A stretch of DNA of 64,000 nucleotides from Klenkia marina (GTDB taxonomy: Bacteria; Actinomycetota; Actinomycetes; Mycobacteriales; Geodermatophilaceae), in the NCBI RefSeq assembly GCF_900101025.1, contig NZ_FMUH01000006.1, forward strand, positions 1 to 64,000. Direction: 5' to 3'. The notes beneath the pieces were generated by a model. It saw only the letters and a program-made list of their open reading frames with translations, searched no databases and had not been told where the DNA came from. The translations under genes and the position numbers were made by a program. Shown one piece after another: positions 11,365 through 63,488 of the stretch (its first letter is position 1; the number at the start of each line of letters is the position of its first letter).

Positions 11365-11373
11365 ACAGTGCAC

Positions 11374-44516: not shown

Positions 44517-44518
44517 CG

Positions 44519-45541
44519 TCAATCTCCAACGGAAGCTATTGCGGATGAATCGGTGGCCTGCCACTGCGGTGGGTCGCTGGACTGGCCGGTGGCCTTACGC
44601 CGCCGAATCCGCATGACTCGTACTCGGTGGCCGACCAGTTCCTGTAAGCCCTCACCGCGCATGTTCGACACCCATGCCGAGCCAGTCCCGTTCTGCACCA
44701 GGAGGGCAGTACGTCCGTTCTCCGCTGTTTGGGCGCGCAGCAGCTGACCTTCGAGACCGTCTGCGTCCTCCCATGCCCGGAGAGCGATCCAGTGCGGGTC
44801 GCATCCGGGTCGTCGGGTGCAGTGTCTGCAGGCCTCTGGCGATGGCAACGCGGGACGGTCGTTTGCCATCCAGGCGGAGCGGCTTTCGTCCAGCAGGCCG
44901 AGCAACATCGAGTCGTCTGACTGGGACACAGGCATTTGTTTAGCGCCCTGACGCAGACTGAAGACCCCCATCCAGGTCGGCGCCCTCCCGTGAACTGCCG
45001 TGACGAGGTGGCTGTAGATCATCAGCTGGCTCCGGATGACCGCCGGGAGCAGCGACTGCGCAGCATCCATCCCCGACTTCAAGTCGATGAGCCAGACACC
45101 ACGCTCTGAGGTGACGAGAAGATCCAGCGTTCCCCACAGCCGGCGCTCATTGTCGTGCAGGGTGACCTCCGCCTTTGCCGTCGCGTCGGCGCCCGCCTGC
45201 CGCATGAGCTCGCCGAGCGAACTCGCCCTCTGCTCAAGGCGCGCCTCCGTAACGCGCCCGTCCATGACTGCGGCAACAGCGACCTTGCGATCCTTGGCCA
45301 CAGCGTGAAAGTGGTCGATCAGCACACCATCGCGGTCGCCGTACCTCCAGTCATCGGCCATGACCCAACGCTGCAGAGCCGCGTGCGCCAGGACGCCAGC
45401 GGACGTGCGCGTCGACGGTGCGGGGCTTCGGGGCGGAGCCCCTGTCATCAGCCCGACCACCGACGCGGGGCACGTCAGAAGACGCGCTGCCGACGTTGGG
45501 GAGAGCCACGGGACGCCGAATTGCCGGACGCCTTCCTTCAT
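44519..45541 (-). CDS. PD-(D/E)XK nuclease, RecB/Cas4-like
   Basis: 340 residues. WLSPTSAARLLTCPASVVGL at the N-terminus, then WGTLDLLV...GVWLIDLKSG and the following RSQLMIYSHLV give the GxxD/DxK/QxxxY pattern of RecB-type nucleases. Cysteines at CRHCTRRPGC plus an earlier TCPAS Cys may hold an iron-sulphur cluster, as in Cas4/AddB. It overlaps the helicase gene by 4 nt (ATGA) and is followed 2 nt later by the NaeI-type gene. This coupling implies it works with the helicase. Confidence 0.85.
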   Translation of the reverse strand: MKEGVRQFGVPWLSPTSAARLLTCPASVVGLMTGAPPRSPAPSTRTSAGVLAHAALQRWVMADDWRYGDRDGVLIDHFHAVAKDRKVAVAAVMDGRVTEARLEQRASSLGELMRQAGADATAKAEVTLHDNERRLWGTLDLLVTSERGVWLIDLKSGMDAAQSLLPAVIRSQLMIYSHLVTAVHGRAPTWMGVFSLRQGAKQMPVSQSDDSMLLGLLDESRSAWMANDRPALPSPEACRHCTRRPGCDPHWIALRAWEDADGLEGQLLRAQTAENGRTALLVQNGTGSAWVSNMRGEGLQELVGHRVRVMRIRRRKATGQSSDPPQWQATDSSAIASVGD

Positions 45542-48500: not shown

Positions 48501-51021
48501 GTTCCGATTCCAGCTGCGCCAGTTCCCCGGTGTGCGCCTCGTCGTCTTCATCCCGCCACAACTCGGCGGCGCGGTCGTACTTCGCGTCGAAGCGCTGCTT
48601 GAGCCGCTTGGTTGCCTGGCGCGTCTCCTCGGTGCGGTCGCGGTCTACGAAGAATCGCTTAGCGGCTGCGACGTCGTCCGCGGCATCGGTGGCTGCGGCG
48701 ACACGCTCATGCACGAGGAGGCGGAGGAGGTCCTGGTAGTGCCGTAGCCCCATGCCCGCCGAGAGCTTCGCGGCGTCCTGCCGGCTGTCGGTGAACACGA
48801 TTGCCTTGCGCTGCTCGTCGACCAGCCCTTCGACGAGTTCGGTGACGAGGACCTGGTTGATCTTCTCGAAGCCGGTGCGCATGCCCCGGATGGGGCTCCG
48901 CTGGCGCAAGGGATCGGTGTGCGGGACTGTCCCGGCCTTTGTGTGGCGGATCTCCCAGTCGTCCGCGCAGTTGGGACAGCGGGTCGGAAAAGGGGAGAGT
49001 GACGTGAGGTCGCGCTGAGGCCTGCCGGTCTTCCGGTCGATCTTCGACGTCACGTGGAAGGTCCAGCCGGTTGGCTGTTTGCCCTGCACGGCGTTGCGCA
49101 CCTCGCCGCTCGGGGGGATCAGGATGCTGGGCCGGTATGCGTAGTCGACCTTCTTCTGGTCCGCGTCCCAGGTGAGGTCATCCAACTCTGGCTTCGTCGT
49201 GCGCGGCCAGTAGACGAGGAAGTTGTCAGCTGTCCGCTCGAGCGAGACCTGGTCGGGCATCTTCGCCAGGTCAGGCACGTCGGCGAGCATGAGGCTCTTG
49301 AAGGGGCTCAACTGGGTCTCGCCAGCGGGCACGAACCCCCCGAGCAGGACGTCGCCGCAGTTCTGGCAGTAGAGCAGCTCGAGTACCCGTGCCCCGCACG
49401 TACACCGCGTTGTCGGCTCGGCGAAGAGCCGGCCCACAGTAGGAACCTCCGTCGTGCGTGACGGCGCGTCCGGGCAGCGCGGATCGGTGCACGCCCACAT
49501 CCCGGGGACGTTGCGGAAGAACAGGTGCGCGCGCAGACGAGGCCAGCCCGGTCGATCCTCGCTCAACGGGACGGCCGCGAGGAGATTCGTTAGGGCGGCC
49601 TTGGCGACGGAGCTGTCGGCCTGCCCGAACAGAAGGGCCTCGAGCTGACGCTCGTCTTTGGCCTCGGGGGCGGGAAGGGCGCCACCGTCCGCGCCAAGGT
49701 GAAAGGCGCTTCGCAGCGCCGTGGGAGCGCCGGACACTTCTGCCACTCGCAGTGCTTCTCCGGCATCGGATGCTCCCGCCAGGTCCTCAGCGGCGTGGGA
49801 GATGTCGGCACGAAGGGGGTTGGGCTGGACCGTGTCGCCCTGCAGGAATTCGAAGGTGCCCTCGTCCAAACCGAAGAAGTCCTGGATGTATTTGCGATCC
49901 CGAGCAGGGTCCAGGCTGGCCGAGGCGGCAAGGACCCGCAGTTGTCCGGGGGATTCGATGAGACCAAGTCGGTTCCGGAGGTTCCGGATAAGGAAGGCGA
50001 CCTCAGTTCCCGCGGTTCCACGGTAGGTGTGCAACTCGTCGATGACGAGCGTGAACCGGTGCGAGTTGTCCGACTGGAGCCACTGACGTGTTTGCTCGAA
50101 GAAGGCGCTCTCGCGGTCCCGGAGGAGCATGACGTTCAACATGCTGTAGTTGGTGATGAGGACGTCCGGCGGCGCATCCAGCATGTCCCACCTGCTGCGC
50201 ATCTCTGCACCGCCCAGTCGCGGCATGAAGTACTGCGTCTCGCCGCTGAGCGCTTGCGCCTTCGCGGATCGGCCGTCCAGGTCGCGGAGCAGGCGGCGGA
50301 GATCCCTAACCGCTCGGTTATCGTCGGGGCTGCCCGTCACAGGTGTCGCCCCGGTGTAGCGACCGAAGAAGAAGCGGTGTCCGTTGCGATTGGCGTCCAG
50401 CCAGGCCCTGGAGTGGTCGCTGTCGAGGGCCTTCCTCAATCTGATGAGCTGATCGTCCACGAGGGCGTTCATCGGGTAGAGGATCATTGCCCGCACCGCT
50501 TGTGGGCGCCCCACCTCGCCCCTGCGCTGTGGGACGAAAGCGCCGTTCTCGTCCTGCCACCAGCTACTTGCCGGCCCGCGGGTCCCCGTCCATGAGCGCG
50601 ACTCCTCGAGAAGTGAATCGAGGATGGGCAGCAGGAACGACTCCGTCTTACCCGATCCGGTGCCCGCGGTGATGACCATGTTGCGGTCTGCGCGCCGCCC
50701 GACGGCGAGGGCCTCTTCCTGGTGTCGATACAGCTGACGTCCCGCGGGGATCAGGCCCGCGGCCGCGAAGTCAGCCAGCTCTGGGGCAGCGCCCGCGACG
50801 GCCGCCGATGCGGCCAGGTCGTGGCCAGCCAGGGTGTACTCCGGGCGGAGCTCGATCAAGGGACGTCGGTAGACGCCGTTGTCCCGGTCGAGGAGGTCCC
50901 GCCGTTCGCGCTGCAGCTCTTCATCAGCGAGCCCGAACGGGGTGTTGTAGTACCTGAAGAAGGCGTCTCGCAGCCGCTCAAAGCTGCCTACGACATCCAG
51001 CCCGGTGCTCGGCTCTTCCAC
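45538..51021 (-). CDS. Giant DEAD/DEAH helicase with DUF1998 (DruE-like)
   Basis: 1827 residues from a GTG with AGGAG upstream. Motor: YRHQEEALAVG, Walker A AGTGSGKTES, VLITNYSMLNVML, DELH box (LVIDELHTYRGTAGTE), FTDSRQDAAKLSAGMG, TTLEAGVDIG and QQRVGRAGRR. Several Cys pairs (CQNCGD, CPNCADDWE, CGNCRRQ/CTRCRQLL, CRSC/CPRC) are spread through the middle, and the DUF1998-type end reads CYRCLRDYSNMAYHALLDWR. Size and layout fit DruE of Druantia; MrfA- or DpdJ-like helicases are smaller alternatives. It couples to the nuclease gene downstream by 4 nt. Confidence 0.88.
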   Translation of the reverse strand: MEEPSTGLDVVGSFERLRDAFFRYYNTPFGLADEELQRERRDLLDRDNGVYRRPLIELRPEYTLAGHDLAASAAVAGAAPELADFAAAGLIPAGRQLYRHQEEALAVGRRADRNMVITAGTGSGKTESFLLPILDSLLEESRSWTGTRGPASSWWQDENGAFVPQRRGEVGRPQAVRAMILYPMNALVDDQLIRLRKALDSDHSRAWLDANRNGHRFFFGRYTGATPVTGSPDDNRAVRDLRRLLRDLDGRSAKAQALSGETQYFMPRLGGAEMRSRWDMLDAPPDVLITNYSMLNVMLLRDRESAFFEQTRQWLQSDNSHRFTLVIDELHTYRGTAGTEVAFLIRNLRNRLGLIESPGQLRVLAASASLDPARDRKYIQDFFGLDEGTFEFLQGDTVQPNPLRADISHAAEDLAGASDAGEALRVAEVSGAPTALRSAFHLGADGGALPAPEAKDERQLEALLFGQADSSVAKAALTNLLAAVPLSEDRPGWPRLRAHLFFRNVPGMWACTDPRCPDAPSRTTEVPTVGRLFAEPTTRCTCGARVLELLYCQNCGDVLLGGFVPAGETQLSPFKSLMLADVPDLAKMPDQVSLERTADNFLVYWPRTTKPELDDLTWDADQKKVDYAYRPSILIPPSGEVRNAVQGKQPTGWTFHVTSKIDRKTGRPQRDLTSLSPFPTRCPNCADDWEIRHTKAGTVPHTDPLRQRSPIRGMRTGFEKINQVLVTELVEGLVDEQRKAIVFTDSRQDAAKLSAGMGLRHYQDLLRLLVHERVAAATDAADDVAAAKRFFVDRDRTEETRQATKRLKQRFDAKYDRAAELWRDEDDEAHTGELAQLESELAAATPLSDVANQVGETLLSLGVNPGGPSPSLNSAHNGRHYPTPWSALFDWTTTPPHPRPGLGLTELELLGRIDDNLKSEVIEGLFSGAGRDFESLGLGWLTLDSDQARTDPEPASMPAIARSSLRVLGDLRRFFGLRDPRDKAHARLTAYWDAVARTHGLDSAEVASGVRAFWSDAVRDYLIDPARVTMRQAGQEAWICGNCRRQHLHRGSGICTRCRQLLPVQGSPTRRGQDYYSWKATERQGRFRLNSAELTGQTDKVDAQSRQARFQGVFLDEGGRESRLADGIDLLSVTTTLEAGVDIGALELVVLGNMPPTRFNYQQRVGRAGRRTSPVAVALTVCRGRSHDEYYFARPHSITNEPTPKPYLALDRTEILRRALRSEVLRMAFAELGPQLIRTKILSDLTNNPHGQFGLTAEWPAVRHLVQRWIDERRDQVEAAAQALCTFAPADVSTQNWAEWVGDDLVATIDHACNPDGAHVELSQRLAEAGALPMFGFPTHVRYLHLNPPQNSRPWPPPGVIDRDLGMAVSQFAPLSEIVRDGQVYPVVGVAAFKPVGNKPVAEAEPLGSTRHLAVCRSCAHLAESNGSAVGDEDPCPRCSAPPGIYQGLQLREPLGFRAGRPKDFDGNFSWSARAMAARAMTDLSKLTRTEEAGVTAFSGPGTRYVINDNGGNLHRFRSSGPSPWGGYVSVEAVEKGLLPSSFATGDAISVALGAVQPTDFLFVGSRRPVMSDLGLRLDLDTSAMQLSGAPESANARKAAWYSLAFLLRTAAATYLDVQTLELSAGIYNGLVDDSPTMMAFLADTLENGAGFSTHLGSPDVFDKLMDGQVREYLASLEEPAHATECLASCYRCLRDYSNMAYHALLDWRLARDLVSVLQTGQLPIDPDRERRAITSWAEAYGAELIDELPYAAAVLDSPLYGRAIVVARHPLEASETTLIAPRLASALAAAEATEPPADAIVFADTFTLDRDPGGVIKSIRAATGGR

Positions 51022-51030
51022 GTCCTGCTC

Positions 51031-51945
51031 CTAGATCGTTTCGAGGTGCTGCCCGAGCGAGGACGCGACGGCGTCGGCGATCGAGCGAGGCACGTTGTCA
51101 TAAATGCCCGTGAAGGCGCTGTCGGAGAAGCGTGGAGAGAATCCGCTGCAGAGGACCAGGCAACGCTGGTGGAGCGTCGGCAATGGGGCTCCCCAGTCGG
51201 CGTACAGGGAGCCGACATCCCGCCCGTTGGCATCAGGACGCCACCTGAGCGTGGATGCGTTGATCTCCCGGAGAGTAGTGAAGACGGCGGAGGCCATGTC
51301 CGCATGCCGCCACCCGTCGCTCCCCAGGAACAGGTGGTGCTTACGGCCGAAGTGCTCATAGCGATAGGCGCCCTCCTGAGGACCCGTGCGGTCGGCTGGA
51401 CCCCAGCGGAGCGACCGCGGATTGAAGCGCTCGAGAGTTTGATGCTGGTAACTGGGCGGGGTAGCCGGCTCACCAAGCTGAGGCGGCATCAGTCTCTGGC
51501 TGAGTTGCTCGGCCGCGCACGGCACGTACTCGGCGCTCAGCGCCTTGCTGACGGCATCGAGGTCGTCTGGCCCGCCGTACTGCAGGAGGACGACGGACGG
51601 ACGGGTGAGGCCTTGCGTCTGCGAGATCTGATCAAGCTGGAGAACCTCGACGTCGAGGTCGGAAATCGCCTGCAGCGTGACGGCTGTTTTGCAACCCACC
51701 AGCAACGCGAGGCCATCACTCTTCGGGAGACGAGTCACCACCATTGGTGTGGTGGACCAGCGGCCGCGCTCCCAATCGACCTCGATGTGGCCGAGCGCCG
51801 ACGTGTCGCGGAGCCAACGTCCAGCTCCGGAGGTGGGAGCCATGATGTCTGCTGACCGGGCGATCCAATCGTGAGTTCGCCGGAACTGGTCGATGGATCC
51901 CGAGCCCTTCACAGCAAGCCATTCAGCCAGGAGGTCACCGAGCAC
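51031..51945 (-). CDS. Unknown protein of the helicase operon (DruG position)
   Basis: 304 residues from a GTG at 51945 with GGGAGGG upstream; it overlaps the preceding gene by 11 nt and ends 9 nt before the helicase start. Mixed alpha/beta content, with stretches such as SDGLALLVGCKTAVTLQAI, PSVVLLQYGGPDDLDAVSKA and RYEHFGRKHHLFLGSDGWRH. No domain recognised. By position and size it matches the third gene of Druantia type II (druG), but sequence identity to that family could not be tested. Confidence 0.75.
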   Translation of the reverse strand: MLGDLLAEWLAVKGSGSIDQFRRTHDWIARSADIMAPTSGAGRWLRDTSALGHIEVDWERGRWSTTPMVVTRLPKSDGLALLVGCKTAVTLQAISDLDVEVLQLDQISQTQGLTRPSVVLLQYGGPDDLDAVSKALSAEYVPCAAEQLSQRLMPPQLGEPATPPSYQHQTLERFNPRSLRWGPADRTGPQEGAYRYEHFGRKHHLFLGSDGWRHADMASAVFTTLREINASTLRWRPDANGRDVGSLYADWGAPLPTLHQRCLVLCSGFSPRFSDSAFTGIYDNVPRSIADAVASSLGQHLETI

Positions 51946-54034
51946 GGCTCTTGCCCTCCCATGCGCTGATGTACCGATCCAGAATCGGGTCAGTCCCTCG
52001 CCATGTCGCTGCGATGTCGGCCCATAGACCATCACTGGTCGTGTCGAGCTCGGTGATGTGGGGCTCGATCCATCCGAGACGGTGCGGCTTCCGCGCCTGC
52101 TGGGTCCGGCGGTCCACCTCGAGGACCCACATCGCTTCTGTTGGCGGGAGCAGTTCCCAGAACTGAGACGGTGGAAGGTCGTGTCGTGCGTACACGGCGG
52201 ACGGCGGCGGAGGGGTGACACCCCATGCACGCCCGTCGCGACCAATCAGCCAGAAGTCCCTGCGGCCTCGCCGCAAGAGCAGCGGCTCAAGGACGTCCCC
52301 TGGTACAAGCGCGCCGGCCAGGCCATCGGAGCTCCGCTCGTCACGAATCAATCTGTAAGTTGCCGCGACCGGATGGCCGAACGTCACGTCCCAGGTCAAC
52401 GGATCCCGACGAGCCGGAGGGATCTCATCTGCGCGGCAGATGCGGAACGTGAGCTTGATGCCGTCGACCTCGAGCGTGTGGTCCCCCGGTTCCAAGTCGA
52501 GTTTTCGAAGCGGAATGGGGAAGCCGGTTGCCGCGAAGGGGTGTTTCTGCTCGACGCCGTCGAGCGCCGCGCGTACCTGCCGCGGCTTGTCGGAGGCGGG
52601 AAGGAGCAGGTCGGGCGCTCCGCCTTCGAGATAGTGGCCGCGGCCCATCGCCTGCGCGACTGGCAGCCCGTTCTTCAGTTGCGGACGAGGGCCGGGGTCC
52701 GGGCGAAGGAGGGACACCAACTCCGGTTGGATGCCGTTCACTGCTGACTCGAAGGCGTGCGCGTCGGTGAGGACGACGTCCGTAAAGATGATCCGCCCGC
52801 GGATCAGTGCCTTGTCTGGGTTCTGACGGAGCTGGCGAAATGAAGAGTCAGCTGCCGCGGTCAACACTGACTCGACCGTCTCGCGATGCTGCGGGAGCAC
52901 TGCGAGGACGTGCTTCTCGTACGGGAGCATCGAGTCGACGCTGATCCATCCGGCGTCCGGATGGCCTCGGAAGGCGACCAGCGGAGAGAAGCGAAAAGAG
53001 CCTTCGTATCGTTCACTGGAGACGCTCACAGTGGTGTCCATCAGTGAGCTGACGTTGGGCAGCTGCCCTTCGATGTCGTACAGGCCACCCCAGTCCGGAG
53101 CACGCAGGGTGAGCGTGCTCGGTCCGCAGGCGAGGGTGAGCTCAGGAATGCCCTCGATCACCGGAATGGCCCATCCGGCTGTCATCTCGTCGAGATCGAG
53201 CGTCACCCGCAGGTCTAGTTGCTGTCGTCCGCGCGCTGTGAGGACCACGCCGTCCCAGGAATGAGCCAGCCGATCGACATGCTCGCAGATCAGCAGCCGG
53301 AGATCTTCGTGCCTGAGCGCCCGGGTGAAGGCGTCGGAGAGGCCGCGAGGGCGACTCGCCCAAAGACAGAGGTGGCGAACGAGCTGCGGCCGCGGTGGCA
53401 CGCCGAGATGGTGGATGTTGAGGGCTGCGAAAAAGTGCGTCAGGCGCATTCTGTCCGACAAGCGGACGAGCGATTGCGACAGCGGGTACCCGATCCGTGT
53501 CAGGGTCGGGTGAGGCCGGATGGTGCTCTCTCCGAACTCATCCGCCCTGGCCGCGATCCAGGCCGCCAGGTCCTTCCACCATCCCGCGACGGTGTCGAAG
53601 TTCTGTGCGAGCCGATCCTTCGCGCGGACGAGTTCATCACCCGTCAGCTCCGGCCTCAGCAGCTGGGCGAGGCGCAGGAAGTAGGCGTTGGAATTGGCGA
53701 CCGCGTCCCGGTGCATGGCGGCGGCTGCGAGTACGGAGACTGCGAGGACAGGGAGGTTCGGCGGCGGAGCGCTGCTGTGCAACCGCCACTGCGACCACGG
53801 AGTCGCAAGGCTCTCGAACAGGCCGGTTGGGGACTGCCATCGCAGGCGGGCGTTCACGCACTGCGCCAGCTGCTGGGCAGGTCGGTCCAGCCTCGGCCAG
53901 AGGCGACTCGCCTCAGCCTCATCGAGGAAGAACGCCCAGGGCGTCGAGGGCGTCGAGGGCGAGGGCTGCAAATAGGCAGCAGTCAGCTCGGCCTGCCATT
54001 GGTCCCAGCCCCAGGTTTGCCCCTCGTCGGGCAT
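51935..54034 (-). CDS. Unknown protein of the helicase operon (DruF position)
   Basis: 699 residues from the ATG at 54034, preceded by GGGGGCGAG. The N-terminal 330 residues are helical (LPVLAVSVLAAAAMHRDAVA, LTHFFAALNIHHLG); the C-terminal half is beta-rich with repeated strands (DLRVTLDLDEMTAGWAIPV, SVSSERYEGSFRFSPLVAF). No catalytic motif recognised. By order (first of unknown-unknown-DruE) and size it corresponds to druF in Druantia type II. The assignment is by context only. Confidence 0.75.
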   Translation of the reverse strand: MPDEGQTWGWDQWQAELTAAYLQPSPSTPSTPWAFFLDEAEASRLWPRLDRPAQQLAQCVNARLRWQSPTGLFESLATPWSQWRLHSSAPPPNLPVLAVSVLAAAAMHRDAVANSNAYFLRLAQLLRPELTGDELVRAKDRLAQNFDTVAGWWKDLAAWIAARADEFGESTIRPHPTLTRIGYPLSQSLVRLSDRMRLTHFFAALNIHHLGVPPRPQLVRHLCLWASRPRGLSDAFTRALRHEDLRLLICEHVDRLAHSWDGVVLTARGRQQLDLRVTLDLDEMTAGWAIPVIEGIPELTLACGPSTLTLRAPDWGGLYDIEGQLPNVSSLMDTTVSVSSERYEGSFRFSPLVAFRGHPDAGWISVDSMLPYEKHVLAVLPQHRETVESVLTAAADSSFRQLRQNPDKALIRGRIIFTDVVLTDAHAFESAVNGIQPELVSLLRPDPGPRPQLKNGLPVAQAMGRGHYLEGGAPDLLLPASDKPRQVRAALDGVEQKHPFAATGFPIPLRKLDLEPGDHTLEVDGIKLTFRICRADEIPPARRDPLTWDVTFGHPVAATYRLIRDERSSDGLAGALVPGDVLEPLLLRRGRRDFWLIGRDGRAWGVTPPPPSAVYARHDLPPSQFWELLPPTEAMWVLEVDRRTQQARKPHRLGWIEPHITELDTTSDGLWADIAATWRGTDPILDRYISAWEGKSRAR

Positions 54035-54159
54035 TGCTCGCCCCCATGTTCTTCGTGACGCTCGGCACACTAAGCGCCAGAGGGGGGCGACCTGGCCAAT
54101 GACCGGGGATTTGAGCCATATGGGTGAGACGAGGCTGGTGGGGCGACCTAGACGTCTGG

Positions 54160-54696
54160 CTACGGCAGACGGGACGCGGCTGGAGCGGCTTGGGCAGTCG
54201 GGCGGTCGGCAACGACGCCGGAACTGTCAGACCTGTCTCGTACCGTCGGGGCGTGTTCAACCGCCGTGAGGACTGCCTGGATGGCTTCCTCGAGCCCTGC
54301 GTGCTCCCACACCCTGACGACGCTCCAGCCGGCCTCCTGAAGCGCGGCGTTGGCTCGCTGATCGCGCTCGATGTTCCGGCGGAGCTTGGGAGTCCAGTAC
54401 CACTCGTTGCGGGTGGGCTGCCGTCCGTGCACCGGACACACGTGCCAGAAGCACCCGTCGACGAACACCGCGACCTTGCGCCGGGTGAACACGATGTCTG
54501 GCCTGACCCTGGCGGCGGGCAAGTCGAGACGGTGGTCTTTCCTGAAGCGGAGGCCGCGAGCGTGCAGTGCGGAGCGGAGCCTGATCTCGGGCTTCGAGTC
54601 CACGCGGCGGTTGGCCTGCATGTTGCGGGACCGGCCCGGACTGAGCGCCTGGGGTCGGGGCTGGTCCCTTGTCGCATCGCCGTTGGGTTGTGGCAC
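54160..54696 (-). CDS. vsr: Very short patch repair endonuclease (Vsr)
   Basis: 178 residues from a GTG at 54696 (an ATG giving MQANRRVDSKPE is an alternative). MQANRRVDSKPEIRLRSALH, RPDIVFTRRKVAVFVDGCFW then HVCPVHG, and YWTPKLRRNIERDQRAN with GWSVVRVWEHAG are the Vsr signatures: catalytic Asp in PDIV, zinc-binding Cys/His. Vsr nicks at T:G mismatches caused by deamination of 5-methylcytosine, so it accompanies a C5 methyltransferase, here the divergent gene 100 nt away. The C-terminal 35 residues are an unrelated-looking Ala/Arg-rich tail. Confidence 0.92.
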   Translation of the reverse strand: MPQPNGDATRDQPRPQALSPGRSRNMQANRRVDSKPEIRLRSALHARGLRFRKDHRLDLPAARVRPDIVFTRRKVAVFVDGCFWHVCPVHGRQPTRNEWYWTPKLRRNIERDQRANAALQEAGWSVVRVWEHAGLEEAIQAVLTAVEHAPTVRDRSDSSGVVADRPTAQAAPAASRLP

Positions 54697-54796
54697 AGGT
54701 CGAGTGTGCGCGCCGTGGGAGGACCGAAGCAGTTGGTGAGTCAAGATGTCCTGGGCGAGCGCGGCGTCCGACGAGGCAAGTGATGAGGGGAAGAGC

Positions 54797-56092
54797 GTGA
54801 GCGACTTCAACGTCGTTGAGATCTGCGCAGGCGCTGGCGGACAGTCTCTGGGACTGCATCTGGCCGGCTTCCGGCACCGGTTGGCGGTGGAGCTTGATCC
54901 CACGGCGGCAGAGACCCTCCGCACCAACATGGGTCGACTGCATCCCGACGAGGACATGACGTCGCTGGTCGCCGTCGGCGATGTGGCCAGCGAGGCTGTG
55001 TGGCAGCCGGAGGCCCACCGCGGAGAGGTCACTCTGCTCGCCGGTGGAGTTCCGTGCCCTCCCTTCAGCGTTGCTGGCAAGCAGCTGGGCTCCAGTGACG
55101 AGCGAGACCTCTTCGCCTGGGCTGTCAACTTGGCTGGTCGGATCCAACCGGAAGCCGTCCTGCTGGAGAACGTCCGCGGACTGAACGACGCCCGTTTCGG
55201 TGGGTATCGCCAGGCGGTGGTCGATCAGCTCGCGGCGTACGGCTATGTGGCTGACTGGAAACTGCTGGAGGCCCGCGACTACGGCGTTCCGCAGCTTCGC
55301 CCTCGGATGGTGCTGGTGGCCCTGCGCAAGGAGTACGTCGACTACTTCGAATGGCCGGAGCCCAAGCCCACCAGCGCGACGGTCTCTTCAACCATCGCCG
55401 GCCTGATGGGGGCGAACGGCTTTCCCTACCTCGATGAGTGGGTCGAGCGAGCCGACAAGATTGCGCCGACCATCGTTGGCGGCAGCAAGAAGCACGGTGG
55501 AGCCGACCTCGGCCCGACGCGGGCAAAGCGCGCCTGGGAAGCGATGTGGGTCGACGCTCACGGACTGGCTAACGAAGCTCCCGGCCCGGATTGGGCCAGA
55601 GACACCAATCCGCGGGGGCCGAAGCTCACCGTGGGCATGGTGAAGCGGTTGCAAGGTTGGTTGGACGAGCCGTCCTATGAGTGGAACTTCACTGGACGGA
55701 AGACCAGTCGCTACCGGCAGATTGGGAATGCCTTTCCGCCGCCCGTAGCAAGAGCGGTCGGCGACAGCATCGCCAGGGCGCTGCGAAAGGACAAGGCGTC
55801 AGGTGCACCGCGGGGCGACTTGCGGATGCACGATGAGGTCTACCACGTCATGCGGGACCGCGCGGAGTACATGACCGCTTATCGCATTAGCAATCTGCTG
55901 GGCGGCCGCATCTCCGTCGAGGACGTGGAGAAGCGCATCACGCTGATTCAGCACGATTTCCACGTCGAGCATCGGGGTCCTTCGAGTCGGCGCTCATACC
56001 TGCTCGGTGAGTGGAAGGCTTTCCAGGGGCAGGCCGATCACATCCGCCATGAGGCGTTCGCAGAACGAAAGCGTCGCGGCCGGATCAGTTGA
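54797..56092 (+). CDS. DNA (cytosine-5) methyltransferase
   Basis: 431 residues from a GTG at 54797 with GAGGGGAA upstream; an ATG at 54746 would add 17 residues. Motifs I (VVEICAGAGGQSLGLHLAGF), IV with catalytic Cys87 (GGVPCPPFSVAG), VI (LLENVRG), VIII (QLRPRMVLVAL) and X (RQIGNAFPPPVARAVG) are intact. About 90 C-terminal residues form a winged-helix-like extension (AYRISNLLGGRISVEDVEKR) like that of NaeI-type methyltransferases. It is the only methyltransferase in the island, so it probably protects GCCGGC against both restriction enzymes, and it occupies the DruM position of Druantia type II. Confidence 0.93.
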   Translation: MSDFNVVEICAGAGGQSLGLHLAGFRHRLAVELDPTAAETLRTNMGRLHPDEDMTSLVAVGDVASEAVWQPEAHRGEVTLLAGGVPCPPFSVAGKQLGSSDERDLFAWAVNLAGRIQPEAVLLENVRGLNDARFGGYRQAVVDQLAAYGYVADWKLLEARDYGVPQLRPRMVLVALRKEYVDYFEWPEPKPTSATVSSTIAGLMGANGFPYLDEWVERADKIAPTIVGGSKKHGGADLGPTRAKRAWEAMWVDAHGLANEAPGPDWARDTNPRGPKLTVGMVKRLQGWLDEPSYEWNFTGRKTSRYRQIGNAFPPPVARAVGDSIARALRKDKASGAPRGDLRMHDEVYHVMRDRAEYMTAYRISNLLGGRISVEDVEKRITLIQHDFHVEHRGPSSRRSYLLGEWKAFQGQADHIRHEAFAERKRRGRIS

Positions 56093-56242
56093 GTCTTGAG
56101 GGTCGGACTCGGACTGCGTCGCGGTGGCGGAAAGGTGTTGGACCGCCCGGTCGCCGGCCAGTCCAAGCCGGACCCTACATTTGCGGTCGAGGCCACTGGC
56201 TGGAGCGTATGGGGGGTGTGAGGGACGGCATTCGCTAAGCCC

Positions 56243-57097
56243 TCAGCTGGCCGCGCCAGTAGTCAGAAAGGGTGTCAGGTGGTCAAGGAGATGCGCCCTT
56301 GCCGCCTGGCTTACGAGCGGCAATCCAGTAGTGTACCTGGTTGTTATGACTTTGCCCTGCAACTCCTCGCCTGCCGCGAGTCGTTCAAGTGCATGGATTA
56401 CGGCCCGCAGGCGTCGCTCGCGCATGTCGAAGAAAGACTTAGTCGGAACAAACCAGTTGAGTTGATCGGGATCGATCGGCTGGATAGAGATCGAGGGCTC
56501 TGGCAGTGAAGACCAGCTCTTCTCGACCCGGCACTGCAACCTCGCATTGACCGGCGCACTTCTGTAGATCGCCCAAGACATCGCCTGGAAGGTTCGCTGG
56601 ACGTGGCTACCTTCGCGATCGGTTAGTTTGGCGATTTGGCGAGGCAGCCAAGCCAGGTTAGGAGTGAAAGAGTTGAGCTCCGGCAACCGACTTGCGAGCA
56701 CCTCGGTATGTGGCAATCTCCGCCAAACGTGAGCGGCGACGAAATCGGTACCTAGTCGGGCGCTGCGCAGCCCGGAAGAGCGGGGGCCATGGATGGACAA
56801 GGCGCGAGGCAAGCTCTTTATCAGCGAATTGTCGTCGCGCAGGTATCCGTCGGCATCTGGGCTGGCCCATGAGTCCGGGAGTCCGCTCCTCCGGTTTCCC
56901 CGGCAGGACGGATCCCGGACGACCCACGGAAGCAAGATGGGCCACTCGGCATAGATCTCCATCGGAAGCCAGACGGCCATTCGCGCAAGTAGCTGTTGAG
57001 CGAGTCCAAAGTCCTTACGCCCCTCGCCTTCGAGCGAATCTCGAAAGAACCGGTAGAGAAGATCGTCGCCGTGAATGATGCGAGGTTTTCCTGCCAC
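56243..57097 (-). CDS. Uncharacterised island protein
   Basis: 284 residues from a GTG at 57097; the frame stays open further upstream and the start is uncertain. Helical protein with SLEGEGRKDFGLAQQLLARM, RSARLGTDFVAAHVWRRL, LNSFTPNLAWLPRQIAKLTD and QLNWFVPTKSFFDMRERRLR. No motif recognised. It is convergent with the methyltransferase gene and AT-richer than the flanks, in keeping with the island. It could be a stand-alone defence gene. Confidence 0.65.
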   Translation of the reverse strand: MAGKPRIIHGDDLLYRFFRDSLEGEGRKDFGLAQQLLARMAVWLPMEIYAEWPILLPWVVRDPSCRGNRRSGLPDSWASPDADGYLRDDNSLIKSLPRALSIHGPRSSGLRSARLGTDFVAAHVWRRLPHTEVLASRLPELNSFTPNLAWLPRQIAKLTDREGSHVQRTFQAMSWAIYRSAPVNARLQCRVEKSWSSLPEPSISIQPIDPDQLNWFVPTKSFFDMRERRLRAVIHALERLAAGEELQGKVITTRYTTGLPLVSQAARAHLLDHLTPFLTTGAAS

Positions 57098-57467
57098 GCT
57101 TCCATCATTACACCAGCGGCATGTTTGCCTGCCGCCGACGCGCTCGCCCGGCGCAGCCAGTTCCGCAAAATTACCTGAGGGAGCCGTTCCCCAGATGGGC
57201 GGGTGGCACGCCAACCTGTCACTGACCGGCAGCCGTCAGTGCCCCGCCTGGGCTGATACAGCATGTCGTGACGTTCATTTAGCTGACCCGACACCATTCT
57301 GTACGAGAGTGAGCGGCTCGCCGATGCCGTGCTGCGTGCGCTGGCCGGCAGGACCGGGCTGCGGGGACGACGCCGCGGCAGCTGAACGAGTCCAACGATT
57401 CGCAGCGTGGCCATTGGTATCGGGTGCTCTCGGTTGCGCAGCGTGATAGTGGTGCCCGAGTGAGTGG
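57098..57467. other. Gene-free stretch at the right edge of the island
   Basis: About 370 nt with no convincing coding pattern, mixed composition and no tRNA or clear repeat. It separates the last island gene from the return to high-GC sequence. Confidence 0.45.
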
Positions 57468-57818: not shown

Positions 57819-57826
57819 GCGCTGTG

Positions 57827-59212
57827 TCAGTGCACGCGCTCGAGCGCGGCGGTGAAGCTGTCGTTCCACCGGCTCAGGTGCGGCCACCTGCCTGCGACCG
57901 TGTCCGTTGCCTGCTGCGCGGTCAAGCCCTGGCTGCGTCGCAGCCACGCCCGCAGCACGAGTCCGGTCCGCGACTGGCCGGCGTGGCAGTGCACCAGCAC
58001 CGGTCGGCCCTCGGCCCGCAGCGCCTCTATGTCGTCGAGGACATCGGCCAGGACGGCGTCCAGCTCGCTGTTGGCGTCGTCGTCGGTCAGGTAGGCGAAC
58101 CGCTGCACCGGGTGGCCGAACGGCTCGCCGACGCGGCACAGCGAGATGACGGCGAAGTCGCGCGAGCTGTGCCGGGCGCCGTCCAGGTCGCTGGCCCACA
58201 CCCCGTCGGCGACCTCCCGCGGCTCGAGCCCCGGGGTGGACGGAGGGCGGTGCCGGGCGAACCGTGACCCGGTCAGCGCCGCCGCGAGCGCGTGCAGGTC
58301 GGCCAGGTCCCAGCGCCGGTCGCCGTCCCCGGGCACGCGGCCGTGCACGACCGACGTCCACCGCATCGGGATGCCCGCGATGCCGAACACGGCGCCGGCC
58401 AGCCCGCCGGCGACGGCGGCCACCGTGTCGGTGTCCCCGCCCAGGTCGATGACCCGCCGCATGACCTCGGCGAACGAGGTCGCCCCGCGCAGCGCCCAGA
58501 CCGCCTGGCCCAGCGTCGGCCACACGGCGCCGTTGGACTCGGTCGCGTCGGCCGGCGTCCATTCCGGTGCGAGCACCGTCGCCCAGCGCCCGCGGTGCTC
58601 GGTCGGGACGGCGGCGAGCGCGTCGTCGACCGCGGCGAGGGGGTCGCCGCCGTCCAGGGCGACGCGGACGAGCTCGTGGAAGACCGCGCAGCCCTCACCG
58701 GCGGACGGGTCGCCGTGGGTCAGTGCCGAGATGCGGCGCGCGGCGTCCATCGTCCCCTCCCGGCCCTGAGGGGCGAAGAAGACGGCGGCGGGTGTCGTCC
58801 GCATCAGCGAGCCGTTGCCGGCTGCGTGCCCGGAGCGGGCGAAGTGCTCGGCCGCGGCGCGGTCCCACGGCAGGCCGGAGCCGAGGACGGCGCGGGTCTG
58901 GTTGCCGATGTCCGGCGGGTTCGCGTCGGCCCAGCGGCGGAACCGGTCGAACACGTCGGCCTCGTCCAGCCCGCCGCGCTCGACGAGCGACTGTGCCAGC
59001 AGCAGCGCCATCTGGGTGTCGTCGGTGAACTCACCGGGCGCCCACCGCAGCGCGCCGCCGCCGCACATCTCGGTGGCGGCGCCGCGGGCGTCGGTCGGGA
59101 ACCGGGCGCTGAACTGCCCGGCGGGGCCGAACTCGAAGGGTGCGCCGAGGGCGTCGCCGACGGCGGAGCCGATGACCGCGCCGGCGACACGGTGGGAGCG
59201 GGGCATGGTCAT
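57827..59212 (-). CDS. ADP-ribosylglycohydrolase fused to dual-specificity phosphatase
   Basis: 461 residues. Residues 1 to about 310 are a DraG/ARH domain: GAVIGSAVGDALGAPFE, the Mg-binding FTDDTQMAL, GNGSLMRT and the second metal site GGDTDTVAAVAGGLAGA. Residues about 330-461 are a DSP/PTP domain with the P-loop VHCHAGQSRTG (HCx5R type). The first would remove ADP-ribose from proteins or nucleic acids, the second may dephosphorylate ADP-ribose-1''-phosphate-like products. The ATG overlaps the stop of the ARPP-1-like gene by 4 nt. Confidence 0.92.
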   Translation of the reverse strand: MTMPRSHRVAGAVIGSAVGDALGAPFEFGPAGQFSARFPTDARGAATEMCGGGALRWAPGEFTDDTQMALLLAQSLVERGGLDEADVFDRFRRWADANPPDIGNQTRAVLGSGLPWDRAAAEHFARSGHAAGNGSLMRTTPAAVFFAPQGREGTMDAARRISALTHGDPSAGEGCAVFHELVRVALDGGDPLAAVDDALAAVPTEHRGRWATVLAPEWTPADATESNGAVWPTLGQAVWALRGATSFAEVMRRVIDLGGDTDTVAAVAGGLAGAVFGIAGIPMRWTSVVHGRVPGDGDRRWDLADLHALAAALTGSRFARHRPPSTPGLEPREVADGVWASDLDGARHSSRDFAVISLCRVGEPFGHPVQRFAYLTDDDANSELDAVLADVLDDIEALRAEGRPVLVHCHAGQSRTGLVLRAWLRRSQGLTAQQATDTVAGRWPHLSRWNDSFTAALERVH

Positions 59213-60063
59213 GACGCCTCCAGGACGGGGTGGGTGAGGTCGATGGCGGTCAGGTGGGCGGTGCGGTCGCGCCAGCGGACGTCGTCCACCCGGATGCGTC
59301 CGCCACCGCTGAGGCGTCGTCCCGCCCCGGCTGCGCGGATCGGCACCAGGTCGGTGGACTGCACGCGCTCGGCGAAGCCGCGGGCAAGTGCTGCCGAGGT
59401 GCGGATCGACGGCCGGCCCAGCGCGTCGAGGACGGCGGCCTCGAGCAGCGCCGTCCAGTGCGCCGCGAGCGCACGGCGGGAGCCGAACAGCTCGAGCGCC
59501 ATCGGGCGTCCGGCGATGCCGATCAGCACGCCGCTCTGCCCGGCCAGGGGAGCGAGACCGTCGACGAGGCCGTGCCGGCGGGACCGGTCGAGCCGGTCGA
59601 CCAGGGAGTCGGTGGGGGAGGGGCCGGCGACCGCTCCGTACCCGGACACCCGCCGCCACACCTCGTGCTGCGCGTCGGCCCGCTCGAGGTGCGGGCGCAG
59701 GGCGACGGGCGCGCGCCGGGCCCGCCGGCGGTGCTGCTGGTCGCCGCCCCAGCGGCCCTGCTCGACGCAGAGCACGGGCAGCACCGTGGGGACGGCGGGT
59801 TCCAGGACGGTGGTGGCGGTCAGCGTGCGGTTCTGCCAGCCGCCCTCGAGCAGTTCGCCGGCCAGCAGGAGCGCCGGACGGTCGGCCCGGTTGGTGACGA
59901 CGAGCTGGTCGACGGCGGGGGACCCGGCCCGCTCGGCGACGTCGACCGCGGCCGAGGCGCCGGTGAGCAACCCGGAGAGGGTGGGGGCGTCGGTCCACAC
60001 GGGGAAGACCGTGAGCGGGCCGCGGTGCGTGCCCTGCCCGACGTGGATGCGGAGACGAACCAT
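59209..60063 (-). CDS. ARPP-1-like protein
   Basis: 284 residues. LTVFPVWTDAPTLSGLLTGA, RADRPALLLAGELLEGGWQN and VLPVLCVEQGRWGG match the ARPP-1 domain (ADP-ribosylglycohydrolase and phosphatase associated protein), defined by its genomic linkage with such enzymes and with NrtR-like Nudix regulators in NAD/ADP-ribose systems. Exactly this linkage is seen here. Its biochemistry is unknown. It is divergent from the regulator at 60140. Confidence 0.82.
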   Translation of the reverse strand: MVRLRIHVGQGTHRGPLTVFPVWTDAPTLSGLLTGASAAVDVAERAGSPAVDQLVVTNRADRPALLLAGELLEGGWQNRTLTATTVLEPAVPTVLPVLCVEQGRWGGDQQHRRRARRAPVALRPHLERADAQHEVWRRVSGYGAVAGPSPTDSLVDRLDRSRRHGLVDGLAPLAGQSGVLIGIAGRPMALELFGSRRALAAHWTALLEAAVLDALGRPSIRTSAALARGFAERVQSTDLVPIRAAGAGRRLSGGGRIRVDDVRWRDRTAHLTAIDLTHPVLEAS

Positions 60064-60139
60064 GACGACCACCCCGTTCGGATTAGCGCACATCTGCGCT
60101 GATCAAAACATAGACGGGTTCTGCGTTAATGTCAAGGGC
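60064..60139. promoter_or_regulatory. Divergent promoter region, probable NrtR-like operator
   Basis: The 76-nt gap is the only AT-rich patch in this neighbourhood. It holds the inverted repeat AGCGCA-CATC-TGCGCT (60085-60100) and two similar half sites, TCTGCGCTGAT and TCTGCGTTAAT, about 28 nt apart. Position between the regulator and the ARPP-1 operon suggests that the regulator binds here and controls both. Confidence 0.5.
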
Positions 60140-60787
60140 GTGTACCGGGACTCGTCGGGCAAGGCCCTCAGCGACTACGAGCAGCCGTCGGTCGCGGTGG
60201 ACACCGCCGTCCTCACCGTCGGGCCGACGTCCGGGGCGCTCGAGGTGGTGCTGGTCCGCGGGGAGGGGGCGTGGGCGCTGCCCGGCACGTTCGTTCATGC
60301 CCGCGAGCGGTTGGCCGAGGCGGTGCAGCGCAGCCTGGTCGACAAGGTCGGGCTGCGCGGGCGGTCGCCGGCTCAGCTGCAGGTGCTCGACGCGCCGGAG
60401 CGCGACGACCGCGGGTGGGTGCTCAGCGTCGCGCACGTCGACGTCGTGCCGTGGGCCGAGCTGGCGCCGGTGCTGGAGCGCCGTCCGGACGACGTCGCGG
60501 TGCGGCCGTGCGCCGAGGCACGGGGTCTGGCGTTCGACCACGACGCGATCGTCGAGCTTGCCGCCGAGCACGTCCGGGCCGGCTACCGGGATCGGCCCGA
60601 CCCGGCCGGGCTCGTGGCCGAGCCGTTCACCCTGCGCGAGCTGCGCGTGGTGCACGCGGCCGTGCTGGGCGGGTTGCCGCACTCGGCGGACACGTTCCGG
60701 CGCTCGGTGCTGCCGTTCCTGGTCGAGGTGCCCGGGGTGCGGGAAGGCACGGTCGGGAAGCCGGCCCAGCTGTACCGACGCAGCTGA
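60140..60787 (+). CDS. NrtR-like Nudix-fold transcriptional regulator
   Basis: 215 residues from a GTG at 60140. The N-terminal Nudix-fold domain (VAVDTAVLTV, EVVLVRGEGAWALPGTFVHA) has a degenerate Nudix box: where REUxEExGU is expected it reads RSLVDKVGL, so the catalytic glutamates are gone. The C-terminal winged helix FTLRELRVVHAAVLGGLPHS with FRRSVLPFL is that of NrtR repressors. It should bind a nucleotide such as ADP-ribose or NAD as a signal rather than cut it, and control the divergent operon. Confidence 0.87.
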   Translation: MYRDSSGKALSDYEQPSVAVDTAVLTVGPTSGALEVVLVRGEGAWALPGTFVHARERLAEAVQRSLVDKVGLRGRSPAQLQVLDAPERDDRGWVLSVAHVDVVPWAELAPVLERRPDDVAVRPCAEARGLAFDHDAIVELAAEHVRAGYRDRPDPAGLVAEPFTLRELRVVHAAVLGGLPHSADTFRRSVLPFLVEVPGVREGTVGKPAQLYRRS

Positions 60788-61105: not shown

Positions 61106-61777
61106 GTGCGACGGTGCCCCTCCGGCCATCGCGGGGTGGCCACAGCGGGGGTGTGCGTGGACGAGGTCGGGGTGGTGCGCGGGCAGGTCTGCCCGCAGTG
61201 CGGGGTGGAGGACGCCGTCCCCGTCGTGCTGGGGATGCCGGACGCCGCCCTCGCCGCGGCCGCGGAACGCGGGCTCGTCGTGCTCGCCGGGTGCGTGGTG
61301 CTCGACGAGCGCGGCGCCTTCCACTGCCGCGGGTGTTCCCACGAGTGGGGCGCCGCCGGCGACCCCACCACCGACGAGCAGCAGCTCGCCGACCTGCTCG
61401 GGGTGCGCCACCGCGAGCTCGCCCACGCCGTCGGCACGGGCTGGCGTCGGCTCGGGTCCGACCTGGCCGACGTCGTCTGGTTCGCCAGTGGCGAGCCGCC
61501 CCAGGTGGCCGTCGGCGTCGTGCCGGGCATGCTGACGCTGGCTCCGGTCGGGGCGGTCGACGACCCCTTCGCGGCCTGGGAGACCGGGCGGTCGTTCACG
61601 CGTGACGACGTCCTCTGCTCGCCCGCTCTGCTGGCCCGGACCGCCGACGACATCGCCCGGGCGCGACGGCGGAGCTTCCGGTGGTGCGGGCGGTGTCGTC
61701 GACCGTTCGCGCCCGAGGACTTCGCCGGGTACCGCGGTACATGTGCGTCGTGCGCCGAGACCGACCGGCGCGAGTAG
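61106..61777 (+). CDS. Zinc-ribbon protein of unknown function
   Basis: 223 residues from a GTG at 61106. Cysteine pairs occur in three places: VRRCPSGH/QVCPQCG at the N-terminus, FHCRGCSHEW about residue 75, and WCGRCRRPF/GTCASCAE at the C-terminus, which suggests two or three zinc ribbons. The middle is plain alpha/beta. No family recognised; a nucleic-acid-binding role is possible. It precedes the NERD-helicase by 76 nt. Confidence 0.65.
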   Translation: MRRCPSGHRGVATAGVCVDEVGVVRGQVCPQCGVEDAVPVVLGMPDAALAAAAERGLVVLAGCVVLDERGAFHCRGCSHEWGAAGDPTTDEQQLADLLGVRHRELAHAVGTGWRRLGSDLADVVWFASGEPPQVAVGVVPGMLTLAPVGAVDDPFAAWETGRSFTRDDVLCSPALLARTADDIARARRRSFRWCGRCRRPFAPEDFAGYRGTCASCAETDRRE

Positions 61778-61853
61778 TGACCGCCGCCGTCGTGGTCGTG
61801 GGTGCGACTGCGATGCTGTCCGGAACAGTTCCGATGGTGGCGGGGGAGCGGGC

Positions 61854-63488
61854 ATGACGGCGCGGATGGTCCCTGCGGACCCGGGCTTCGAGTCGAGTGC
61901 CGAGGCGCTGTTCGCCACGGCGCTGCGCGAGCAGCTGCCCGACGACGCCGTGATGATCTGCAACCAGCGGTTCACCGACCGGACCGCCGACCGGGAGGCC
62001 GACGTCATCGTGGCCTGGCCCGGGCGCGGTGTCGCCGTCCTCGAGGTCAAGGGCGGCAGCGTCTCGCTGCGCGACGGCCAGTGGTGGCAGACCGGTGGCG
62101 CCAGCAAGCCAATCCACCCGGTCGAGCAGGCGCTGAAGTGCAAGTACGCCCTGCGCGACTACCTGTACCGCGCGCCGCGCTGGTCGCGGGGCAACCCGCG
62201 GCTGGTGCACATGGTGGCGCTGCCGACCACCACGCTGCCCAGCGACTTCACCGCCCCGGACGCACCGCGGTGGGCGGTGATCGACAAGACCGAGATCCCG
62301 GAGGCCGCCGCCCGCATCGCGTCGGCGCTGCGGCAGGCCGAGCGCCAACCGGAGGCACCCACCGCCGACGAGGTCGAGCTGCTGGTCGACTGCCTGGTGG
62401 GCACGCTCATCCCGCAGGCCGACCTCGTCGCGCAGCTGGGCGAGCGGGAGGCCGCCGTCGAGCTGCTCACCCGCGAGCAAGCTCGGCTGCTGGACTTCCT
62501 CGAGTCCCACGACCGGGTCGAGATCCGCGGGGGTGCCGGGTCCGGCAAGACCTGGCTCGCCGTCGAGAAGGCTCGTCGACTGACCGCGGCCGGCTACCGG
62601 GTCGCCCTGCTCTGCTACTCGCGCGGGCTCGCCGAGTTCCTCCGCCGGCGCGTCGCGTCGCTGAAGGACCGCCACCGCCCCGCGTACGTGGGGGAGTTCC
62701 ACGAGCTCGGCATCGCCTGGGGCGTCGAACGCGGGGCGGACGACGACAGCTCGTACTGGGAACGCGAGCTCCCCCAGCAGATGGTCGCCCGCGCCTCGCA
62801 GCTCCCGCCCGCCGAGCTGTTCGACGCCGTGGTCATCGACGAGGCGCAGGACTTCGACCAGTCGTGGTGGCCGGCCGTGCTCGCCGCGCTGCGCGACCCG
62901 GAGAAGGGCTGCCTCTACGTCTTCTCCGACGAGGGGCAACGGGTGTTCACGCGCCAGGGGCGGTCGCCCGTGCCGTTGGAGAGCTACGACCTGAAGCAGA
63001 ACCTGCGCAACACCAAGCAGATCGGCGGCACGTTCTCCAGCCTGACCACCGCGCAGATGCAGCTCCTCGGTGGCGAGGGCGTGCCCGTGCGGTTCGTGCC
63101 CTGCGCGACGGACGACGCGCTCGACGCCGCGGATGACGTCGCCGACGGTCTGCTCGACGCCGGCTGGCCCACCCAGTCGGTCGCGCTGCTCACCACCTAC
63201 CGCAGACACCCGGTGCAGATCGAGCGGCAGGCCGAGGGGCAGGACGCCTACTGGTCCTCCTACTGGGACGACGAGGACCTCTTCTACGGGCACGTCCTCG
63301 GGTTCAAGGGCCTGGAGCGGCCGGCCGTGGTTCTCGCGATCAACGGGTTCCGCGACGAAGCGCGAGCGCGGGAGATGCTCTACGTCGGGCTGTCCCGGGC
63401 GCGGGACCTACTGGTCGTCTGCGGCGACCTCGACCTCATCCAGCGGGTCGGTGGCGATGCCGTTGCCTGTCGCCTGCAACGAGGGTGA
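61854..63488 (+). CDS. NERD nuclease-domain protein with UvrD-like helicase
   Basis: 544 residues from the ATG at 61854 with GGGGGAG upstream. The N-terminal NERD domain (TADREADVIVAWPGRGVAVLEVKGGSV split as Asp in EADV and ExK in LEVKGG) is PD-(D/E)XK-like. The SF1 motor follows: Walker A IRGGAGSGKTWLA, VVIDEAQDFDQSWW, LLTTYRR, GFKGLERPAVVLAI and MLYVGLSRARDLLVV. Both halves appear active. Roles in repair or defence are known for NERD-helicase fusions, but none is proven here. The 3' end overlaps the convergent DUF6308 gene by about 81 nt. Confidence 0.9.
   Translation: MTARMVPADPGFESSAEALFATALREQLPDDAVMICNQRFTDRTADREADVIVAWPGRGVAVLEVKGGSVSLRDGQWWQTGGASKPIHPVEQALKCKYALRDYLYRAPRWSRGNPRLVHMVALPTTTLPSDFTAPDAPRWAVIDKTEIPEAAARIASALRQAERQPEAPTADEVELLVDCLVGTLIPQADLVAQLGEREAAVELLTREQARLLDFLESHDRVEIRGGAGSGKTWLAVEKARRLTAAGYRVALLCYSRGLAEFLRRRVASLKDRHRPAYVGEFHELGIAWGVERGADDDSSYWERELPQQMVARASQLPPAELFDAVVIDEAQDFDQSWWPAVLAALRDPEKGCLYVFSDEGQRVFTRQGRSPVPLESYDLKQNLRNTKQIGGTFSSLTTAQMQLLGGEGVPVRFVPCATDDALDAADDVADGLLDAGWPTQSVALLTTYRRHPVQIERQAEGQDAYWSSYWDDEDLFYGHVLGFKGLERPAVVLAINGFRDEARAREMLYVGLSRARDLLVVCGDLDLIQRVGGDAVACRLQRG

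Follow-up and report, generated by a model that had tools for sequence, protein, structure and literature searches.

A predicted ADP-ribose-responsive NrtR–ARPP–ADP-ribosylglycohydrolase cluster in Klenkia marina, with a candidate operator and promoter

Gene sets that combine an ADP-ribosylglycohydrolase (ARG), an R-P phosphatase, an ARPP protein, and a Nudix or WYL regulator have been described in bacteria, actinobacteria included (Iyer et al., 2022, with Burroughs, Aravind and co-workers, Viruses 14:1977; PMC9503650). The part of that paper devoted to them proposes that phage-made ADP-ribosylation is removed after ADP-ribose has released the repressor. These systems were screened for the absence of coupled ADP-ribosyltransferases (ARTs) or sirtuins, and restriction endonucleases (REases) and helicases are sometimes linked to them; peptide-binding chaperones are also named there. 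NrtR of Mycobacterium smegmatis (MsNrtR) is reported to have a degraded Nudix motif and no detectable hydrolase activity, to repress its own gene, and to be released from DNA by ADP-ribose (PMC6800001). Our literature search found no experimental work on the ARG–ARPP–NrtR combination; subscription journals and preprints were outside its coverage. Here we describe such a gene set in Klenkia marina (Geodermatophilaceae). The DNA analyzed (hereafter, the window) is a stretch of 64,000 nucleotides at the start of contig NZ_FMUH01000006.1 (contig C13 in our numbering) of a 4.2-Mb genome, and the cluster in question consists of an NrtR-family regulator, ARPP-1, and an ARG fused to a phosphatase.

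We consider it probable that this cluster is a self-contained eraser operon that is induced by ADP-ribose. The regulator gene diverges from the ARPP-1 and ARG-phosphatase genes, and the TGA of ARPP-1 overlaps the ATG of the ARG-phosphatase gene (ATGA), so the two genes are probably translationally coupled. An earlier prediction made from the letters of this DNA (hereafter, the original prediction) had described a coupled operon facing a regulator, and every part of it was found in place. The GC content of the gap between the regulator and ARPP-1 is 0.56 (positions 60050–60149), versus about 0.70–0.85 in the flanking genes. The gap had been called the only AT-rich patch nearby; it is indeed AT-rich, but it is not the only such patch, because several 100-bp windows at 0.55–0.62 lie within 56.25–57.6 kb. 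The coordinates of all features are summarized in Table 1.

The regulator carries both a Nudix domain and an NrtR winged helix, with Pfam matches to NrtR_WHD (1.2e-7) and NUDIX (1.8e-4) that are both above the curated cut-off. A plain sequence search also matched it to Shewanella oneidensis NrtR (PDB 3gz5) and to AraR (5bs6), and a profile search of the PDB gave much stronger matches, to 2fml (1e-37), 3gz5 (4e-36, spanning both domains), and 5bs6 (5e-30). Its score against NCBIfam NF050029 was 72.7 bits, below the cut-off of 400 for that model. In the Nudix box, the Glu pair of the REUxEE motif is replaced by S65 and K69. Among 28 aligned homologues, the Nudix-box Arg is always kept, position 65 is always Ser, Ala, or Thr and never Glu, and position 69 is always Lys, which bears out the claim of a Nudix fold that has lost its catalytic glutamates. 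Because the Arg is kept and the Glu pair is lost, ligand binding without cleavage is expected, and it is unlikely, judged from these residues, that the regulator has Nudix activity of its own. Some relatives have an NrtR with a C-terminal extension of ~150 aa that belongs to no known family, mostly together with a changed operator (L017:7981-9177, L030:4764-5909, L029:4721-5872, and others); for three such proteins, Pfam gave nothing beyond the NUDIX-type and NrtR_WHD models.

The gap contains a predicted operator in two copies, spaced 27 bp apart, and the only promoter-like match found in positions 59900–60300. The position of this promoter and its 17-nt spacing are kept in the other five Klenkia loci, with weaker hexamers. 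The promoter spacer holds operator copy 2, and copy 1 covers the probable transcription start of the ARPP–ARG operon; a palindromic operator at a divergent promoter is an NrtR-family trait. Since both copies lie between the divergent genes, the regulator probably represses its own gene too. The possible -10 element of the regulator gene agrees with the TANNNT rule for leaderless genes. The best dyad in the gap, with one mismatch of 14 to TTAGCGCN6GCGCTAA, was matched by none of 5,000 dinucleotide shuffles. This consensus was derived from the same alignment as the tested loci; sites with ≤2 mismatches are also carried by six of the nine loci that were unused in deriving it. The repeated half sites that had been noticed in the gap are thus real and recurrent. 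The mean best mismatch was 1.55 of 14 in 11 loci outside the family, versus 5.97 in shuffled sequences (0/300), and 3.53 versus 6.09 in 19 family loci (0/300). In all, 44 loci were compared after the removal of 14 duplicates, some of them with short flanks. All 28 sites with ≤2 mismatches, across 22 of these loci, are upstream of ARPP (positions matched by eye).

The window operator is the only site with ≤1 mismatch in its genome, and one 2-mismatch site occurs elsewhere (C8:765979). A wider NrtR regulon was considered and rejected, since a genome scan at ≤3 mismatches found 35 places versus 48 for the reversed pattern, so that the window site alone stands out. In three f95 loci (L147, L152, and L153), all outside the derivation of the consensus, a perfect palindrome lies ~44 bp upstream of ARPP, and no adjacent NrtR or ARG was detected. 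From this arrangement, ARPP would seem to be the core target of the operator, and in the f95 genomes NrtR may act from elsewhere. L147 also has a phosphatase-like ORF at 11015–11551.

The ARG-phosphatase protein matches PF03747 (2.7e-67) and DSPc (3.7e-12) in Pfam. The ARG residues D64, D65, T66, D260, and D262 and the phosphatase residues H408, C409, and R415 (H-C-x5-R) are kept in 22 of 22 aligned sequences; the active-site residues of both domains are intact. In an AlphaFold2 model of the fusion (pLDDT 88.2), the ARG half (residues 1–318) resembles an ART toxin/immunity structure (6drh, VIA Z 38.3) and DraG (2woc, 38.2), with ARH3 also matching (Z about 35–38), and the phosphatase half (~330–461) resembles DUSPs (Z about 19–20). 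No ART partner was seen at the cluster, although no search aimed at transferases was made. A second ARG-phosphatase gene (L197:6829-10432) occurs in the Geodermatophilaceae genome G505, ~24 kb from the main cluster, and is convergent with a SIR2 gene that differs in its N-terminal half from the one described below.

ARPP-1 matches PF20208 at 6e-60, and C99, Q77, E101, R104, W105, and Q132 are invariant in its alignment. For the invariance of C99, the 27-row alignment is the better guide, because the 37-row one takes in 11 of 29 phylum loci that were chosen by a script using the Cys motif. The AlphaFold2 model (pLDDT 92.9) gave no Foldseek match at E ≤0.001 in the PDB or BFVD, with a best VIA Z of 2.4 over 66 residues, and a sequence-profile search of the PDB gave nothing meaningful. 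The absence of a fold match does not make the ARPP-1 fold new.

If the cluster is an ADP-ribose-inducible operon, it would work as follows. At low free ADP-ribose, NrtR would sit on the two operator copies and repress the operon. When ADP-ribose rises, from ADP-ribosylated macromolecules, from NADases, or with the loss of NAD, it would bind the dead Nudix pocket and the repressor would leave the DNA. ARPP-1 and the ARG-phosphatase would then be made in a coupled fashion; the ARG would take off ADP-ribose, and the phosphatase and ARPP-1 would process the product, possibly to the benefit of a cell under phage or NADase attack. The gene content and the residues described above, together with published precedent, favor an NrtR-type ADP-ribose sensor that controls the operon through the gap operator, as had been predicted. 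Several observations weigh against this explanation. The release of MsNrtR was seen at 50 mM ADP-ribose (PMC6800001), and NrtR-family proteins can serve other pathways, such as L-arabinose use in the case of AraR (PMC4666351). An adjacent NrtR is lacking in 7 of the 44 loci and an adjacent ARG in 11, some of these having short flanks, and 22 loci have no operator site at ≤2 mismatches. Only sites with 4–7 mismatches were found in eight of the nine relatives with a C-terminally extended NrtR (Modestobacter and several Blastococcus), the ninth, L017, having one with 2, and the best site of one Klenkia locus (L013) has 5. Judged from these sites, the operator code is not universal among relatives.

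Table 1. Positions of features in the window and, in the last row, in three f95 loci.
Feature	Position	Strand	Basis
NrtR-family repressor (predicted), 215 aa, catalytically dead Nudix domain and winged helix	60140..60787	+	Pfam, PDB profile matches, alignment
ARPP-1, 284 aa, putative enzyme	59209..60063	-	PF20208, alignment, AlphaFold2 model
ARG (residues ~1-317) fused to DSP-type phosphatase (~330-461)	57827..59212	-	Pfam, alignment, model
Operator copy 1 (predicted), TTAGCGCACATCTGCGCTGA, 1 mismatch to TTAGCGCN6GCGCTAA	60083..60102		alignment consensus, shuffles, genome scan
Operator copy 2 (predicted), degraded, 5 mismatches, right half site TGCGTTAA	60110..60129		in promoter spacer
Predicted sigma-70-type promoter of ARPP–ARG operon, TTGACA-N17-TATGTT	60107..60135	-	1 found vs 0.0 expected
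Regulator gene: possible -10 element of a leaderless transcript, TAATGT, 7 nt ahead of the GTG	60127..60132	+	read from sequence
Neighbouring NERD-UvrD helicase; may actually start downstream of 61602	61602..63485	+	family matches, locus comparison
Druantia-like island: type II REase-like, DruK, DruE, DruF, Vsr, DruM-like C5 methylase, one ORF of no assigned family	43494..57214		defence-model matches
Perfect operator palindromes without adjacent NrtR or ARG	L147:9451-9470, L152:1710-1729, L153:3088-3107		operator scan

We also compared the surroundings of the cluster among its relatives. A divergent NrtR is found in 37 of the 44 loci, a downstream ARG in 33, and the NERD-UvrD helicase in 26. 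Where relatives with this locus bear a name, they are Klenkia species, and diverged copies occur in other Geodermatophilaceae genera. ARG, ARPP, NrtR, and the helicase are common to six of the nine Klenkia genomes, in which the copies of the locus are 77–93% identical. The homology of the window to the five other Klenkia loci stops at 57792–57831, just past the ARG stop (57827), and beyond this point the relatives carry a macro-SIR2 gene, an HNH gene, a DruE-like helicase, or other genes in place of Druantia, which adjoins the cluster in only one of the six Klenkia loci compared, that of the window. From where the homology ends and the varying genes beyond, we infer that the cluster is a conserved part of the Klenkia backbone and the adjoining slot a hotspot; on this comparison, the cluster is a neighbor of the Druantia-like island and not a part of it. 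The original prediction placed the set at the edge of a defence island; the edge is confirmed by the Druantia proteins (DruE scores 2,571 bits), and membership in the island is contradicted. The ORF at 56246–57214 within the island gave no family match. The NERD helicase co-occurs with ARPP in 17 of 19 family genomes, but it is also present in 32 of the 93 family genomes that lack ARPP, which weakens it as proof of a functional link. In one Klenkia, a PD-(D/E)XK nuclease matching Pfam REase-ARP stands beside this helicase (L013:14940-15833). In four Klenkia, a 128-aa protein without a Pfam match, absent from the window, is encoded directly downstream of ARG on the same strand (L011:7382-7765).

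Eleven of the 44 loci have the macro-SIR2 gene no more than ~7 kb away from ARPP. Its placement is not constant: in Klenkia, other Geodermatophilaceae, and Pseudonocardia, the gene and ARG converge; in Arthrobacter (L040), it follows downstream on the same strand; and in genome G854 (L146), it lies on the NrtR side. Its N-terminal domain is macro-like by a profile match to macroH2A1.1 (2.9e-7) and gave no Pfam macro match. Its SIR2 half matches the PADLOC models of ThsA (1.9e-21 to 6e-25) and DSR2 in the PDB (3e-15), and all 16 aligned sequences have the catalytic residues N295 and H334. No operator was found upstream of it at ≤2 mismatches. The protein is widespread in Geodermatophilaceae (most of L155–L183), mostly unlinked to ARPP. 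In an unrooted SIR2 tree, a single branch separates the 11 linked rows from 29 unlinked ones; the latter are nearly one orthologue set (from 30 loci), long branches meet, and L154 and L097 were left out. The tree shows only that the linked SIR2s differ from the core copy. SIR2_2 occurs within 10 kb of ARPP in 7 of 19 ARPP-containing family genomes, versus 0 of 32 NERD loci without ARPP (Fisher p 4e-4, uncorrected for relatedness; the 32 loci were read by eye, and several of these helicases are near contig ends). The same 19 genomes hold 20 SIR2_2 matches, 7 of them within 10 kb of ARPP versus 0.08 expected by uniform placement; none of these proximity figures takes account of common ancestry or of the tendency of defence genes to cluster. 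Among another 10 SIR2_2 loci, seven (L192–L196, L198, and L199) resemble macro-SIR2 marginally or not at all, two are of the core type, and one (L197) is the SIR2 beside the second ARG.

These neighbors lead to a different explanation, in which the operon is the companion of a resident NADase and would clear ADP-ribose, or ADP-ribosylated self, made by SIR2-type defence enzymes of the same locus, the partner having been lost or replaced by Druantia in the window. The proximity of macro-SIR2 in several orientations, its intact catalytic residues, the difference between loci with and without ARPP, and the second ARG of G505 are all consistent with it. However, SIR2_2 had no match anywhere in the genome of the window, macro-SIR2 was not seen in 33 of the 44 loci (some with short flanks), the SIR2 genes lack the operator, and the core macro-SIR2 found across the family is unlinked; moreover, defence genes tend to lie together in any case, and some of the Klenkia cases go back to a single inheritance. 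We regard this explanation as unlikely, if worth keeping in view. It bears on the further claim that the set could counter NAD-depleting defence, which gains indirect support from the relatives and none from the window genome. Because macro-SIR2 stands beside the cluster in relatives, NADase-made ADP-ribose is suggested as an inducer alternative to phage toxins. A more specific proposal is a defence module in which macro-SIR2 is the NADase and the cluster is the arm that senses ADP-ribose and serves clean-up or immunity, induced by the ADP-ribose that the NADase makes and limiting self-damage or resetting the cell; strains such as that of the window would have kept the arm and swapped the effector slot for Druantia. 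This we put forward tentatively and think rather improbable.

Another possibility is the housekeeping turnover of NAD and ADP-ribose, with a local NrtR regulon recycling ADP-ribose and no relation to conflict. The stable backbone locus with ordinary conservation in Klenkia speaks for such a function, and NAD metabolism is the typical target of NrtR regulators (PMC6800001). Against it, the distribution of ARPP is patchy, with 19 of 112 Geodermatophilaceae genomes having the gene, the cluster showed no gene for NAD synthesis, and the slot next to ARG repeatedly holds defence-type genes; we think this explanation quite unlikely. The preferred reading is an ADP-ribose-inducible eraser operon. The sensor–eraser idea is testable now that its operator and promoter are defined, that the operon is seen to stand alone with one best target in the genome, and that macro-SIR2 in relatives is a concrete candidate for the source of the ligand. 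Should the SIR2 link prove real, the proposed trigger would no longer be phage toxins but NADases of the host itself. The interest of the locus is moderate and comes mostly from this now-testable switch and from the SIR2 link in relatives. On the whole, what the original prediction observed is confirmed and its interpretation is partly supported.

Among known systems, the SIR2 half of the relatives' neighboring gene resembles the anti-phage NADases ThsA of Thoeris and DSR2. Unlike these, macro-SIR2 has a macro-like N-terminal domain and no detected SLOG domain, and the gene is absent from the window. The window ARG shares its fold and metal-binding Asp motifs with DraG, ARH, and the ADP-ribosylarginine hydrolase Tri1, but unlike them it is fused to a DSP phosphatase. 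The regulator shares with MsNrtR and S. oneidensis NrtR a dead Nudix domain with a winged helix, a divergent promoter, and a palindromic operator. Its predicted operator is TTAGCGC-N6-GCGCTAA, whereas that given for Mycobacterium NrtR is GTTTTCGA-N7-TCGAAAAC (PMC6800001), and its predicted target is ARPP–ARG, as opposed to nadABC for the NrtR of NAD synthesis. The closest match is the ARG-centred NAD-ADPr system (PMC9503650), with which the cluster shares an ARG with intact active-site residues, its fusion to an R-P superfamily phosphatase, ARPP, a one-component Nudix-HTH regulator, and the proposed induction by ADP-ribose. Those systems were selected for having no coupled sirtuin, whereas the relatives of this cluster often have macro-SIR2 nearby; and an operator is given here, whereas section 3.8 of that paper gives none. 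This gene set has been described before, as a system predicted to act against ADP-ribosylation by phages, and the cluster fits that description, so the anti-ADP-ribosylation role first proposed for this cluster agrees with a published prediction. What our analysis adds is the predicted operator and promoter, the operator recurring in distant actinobacteria, the distinction between backbone and island, and the recurrent macro-SIR2 neighbor in relatives.

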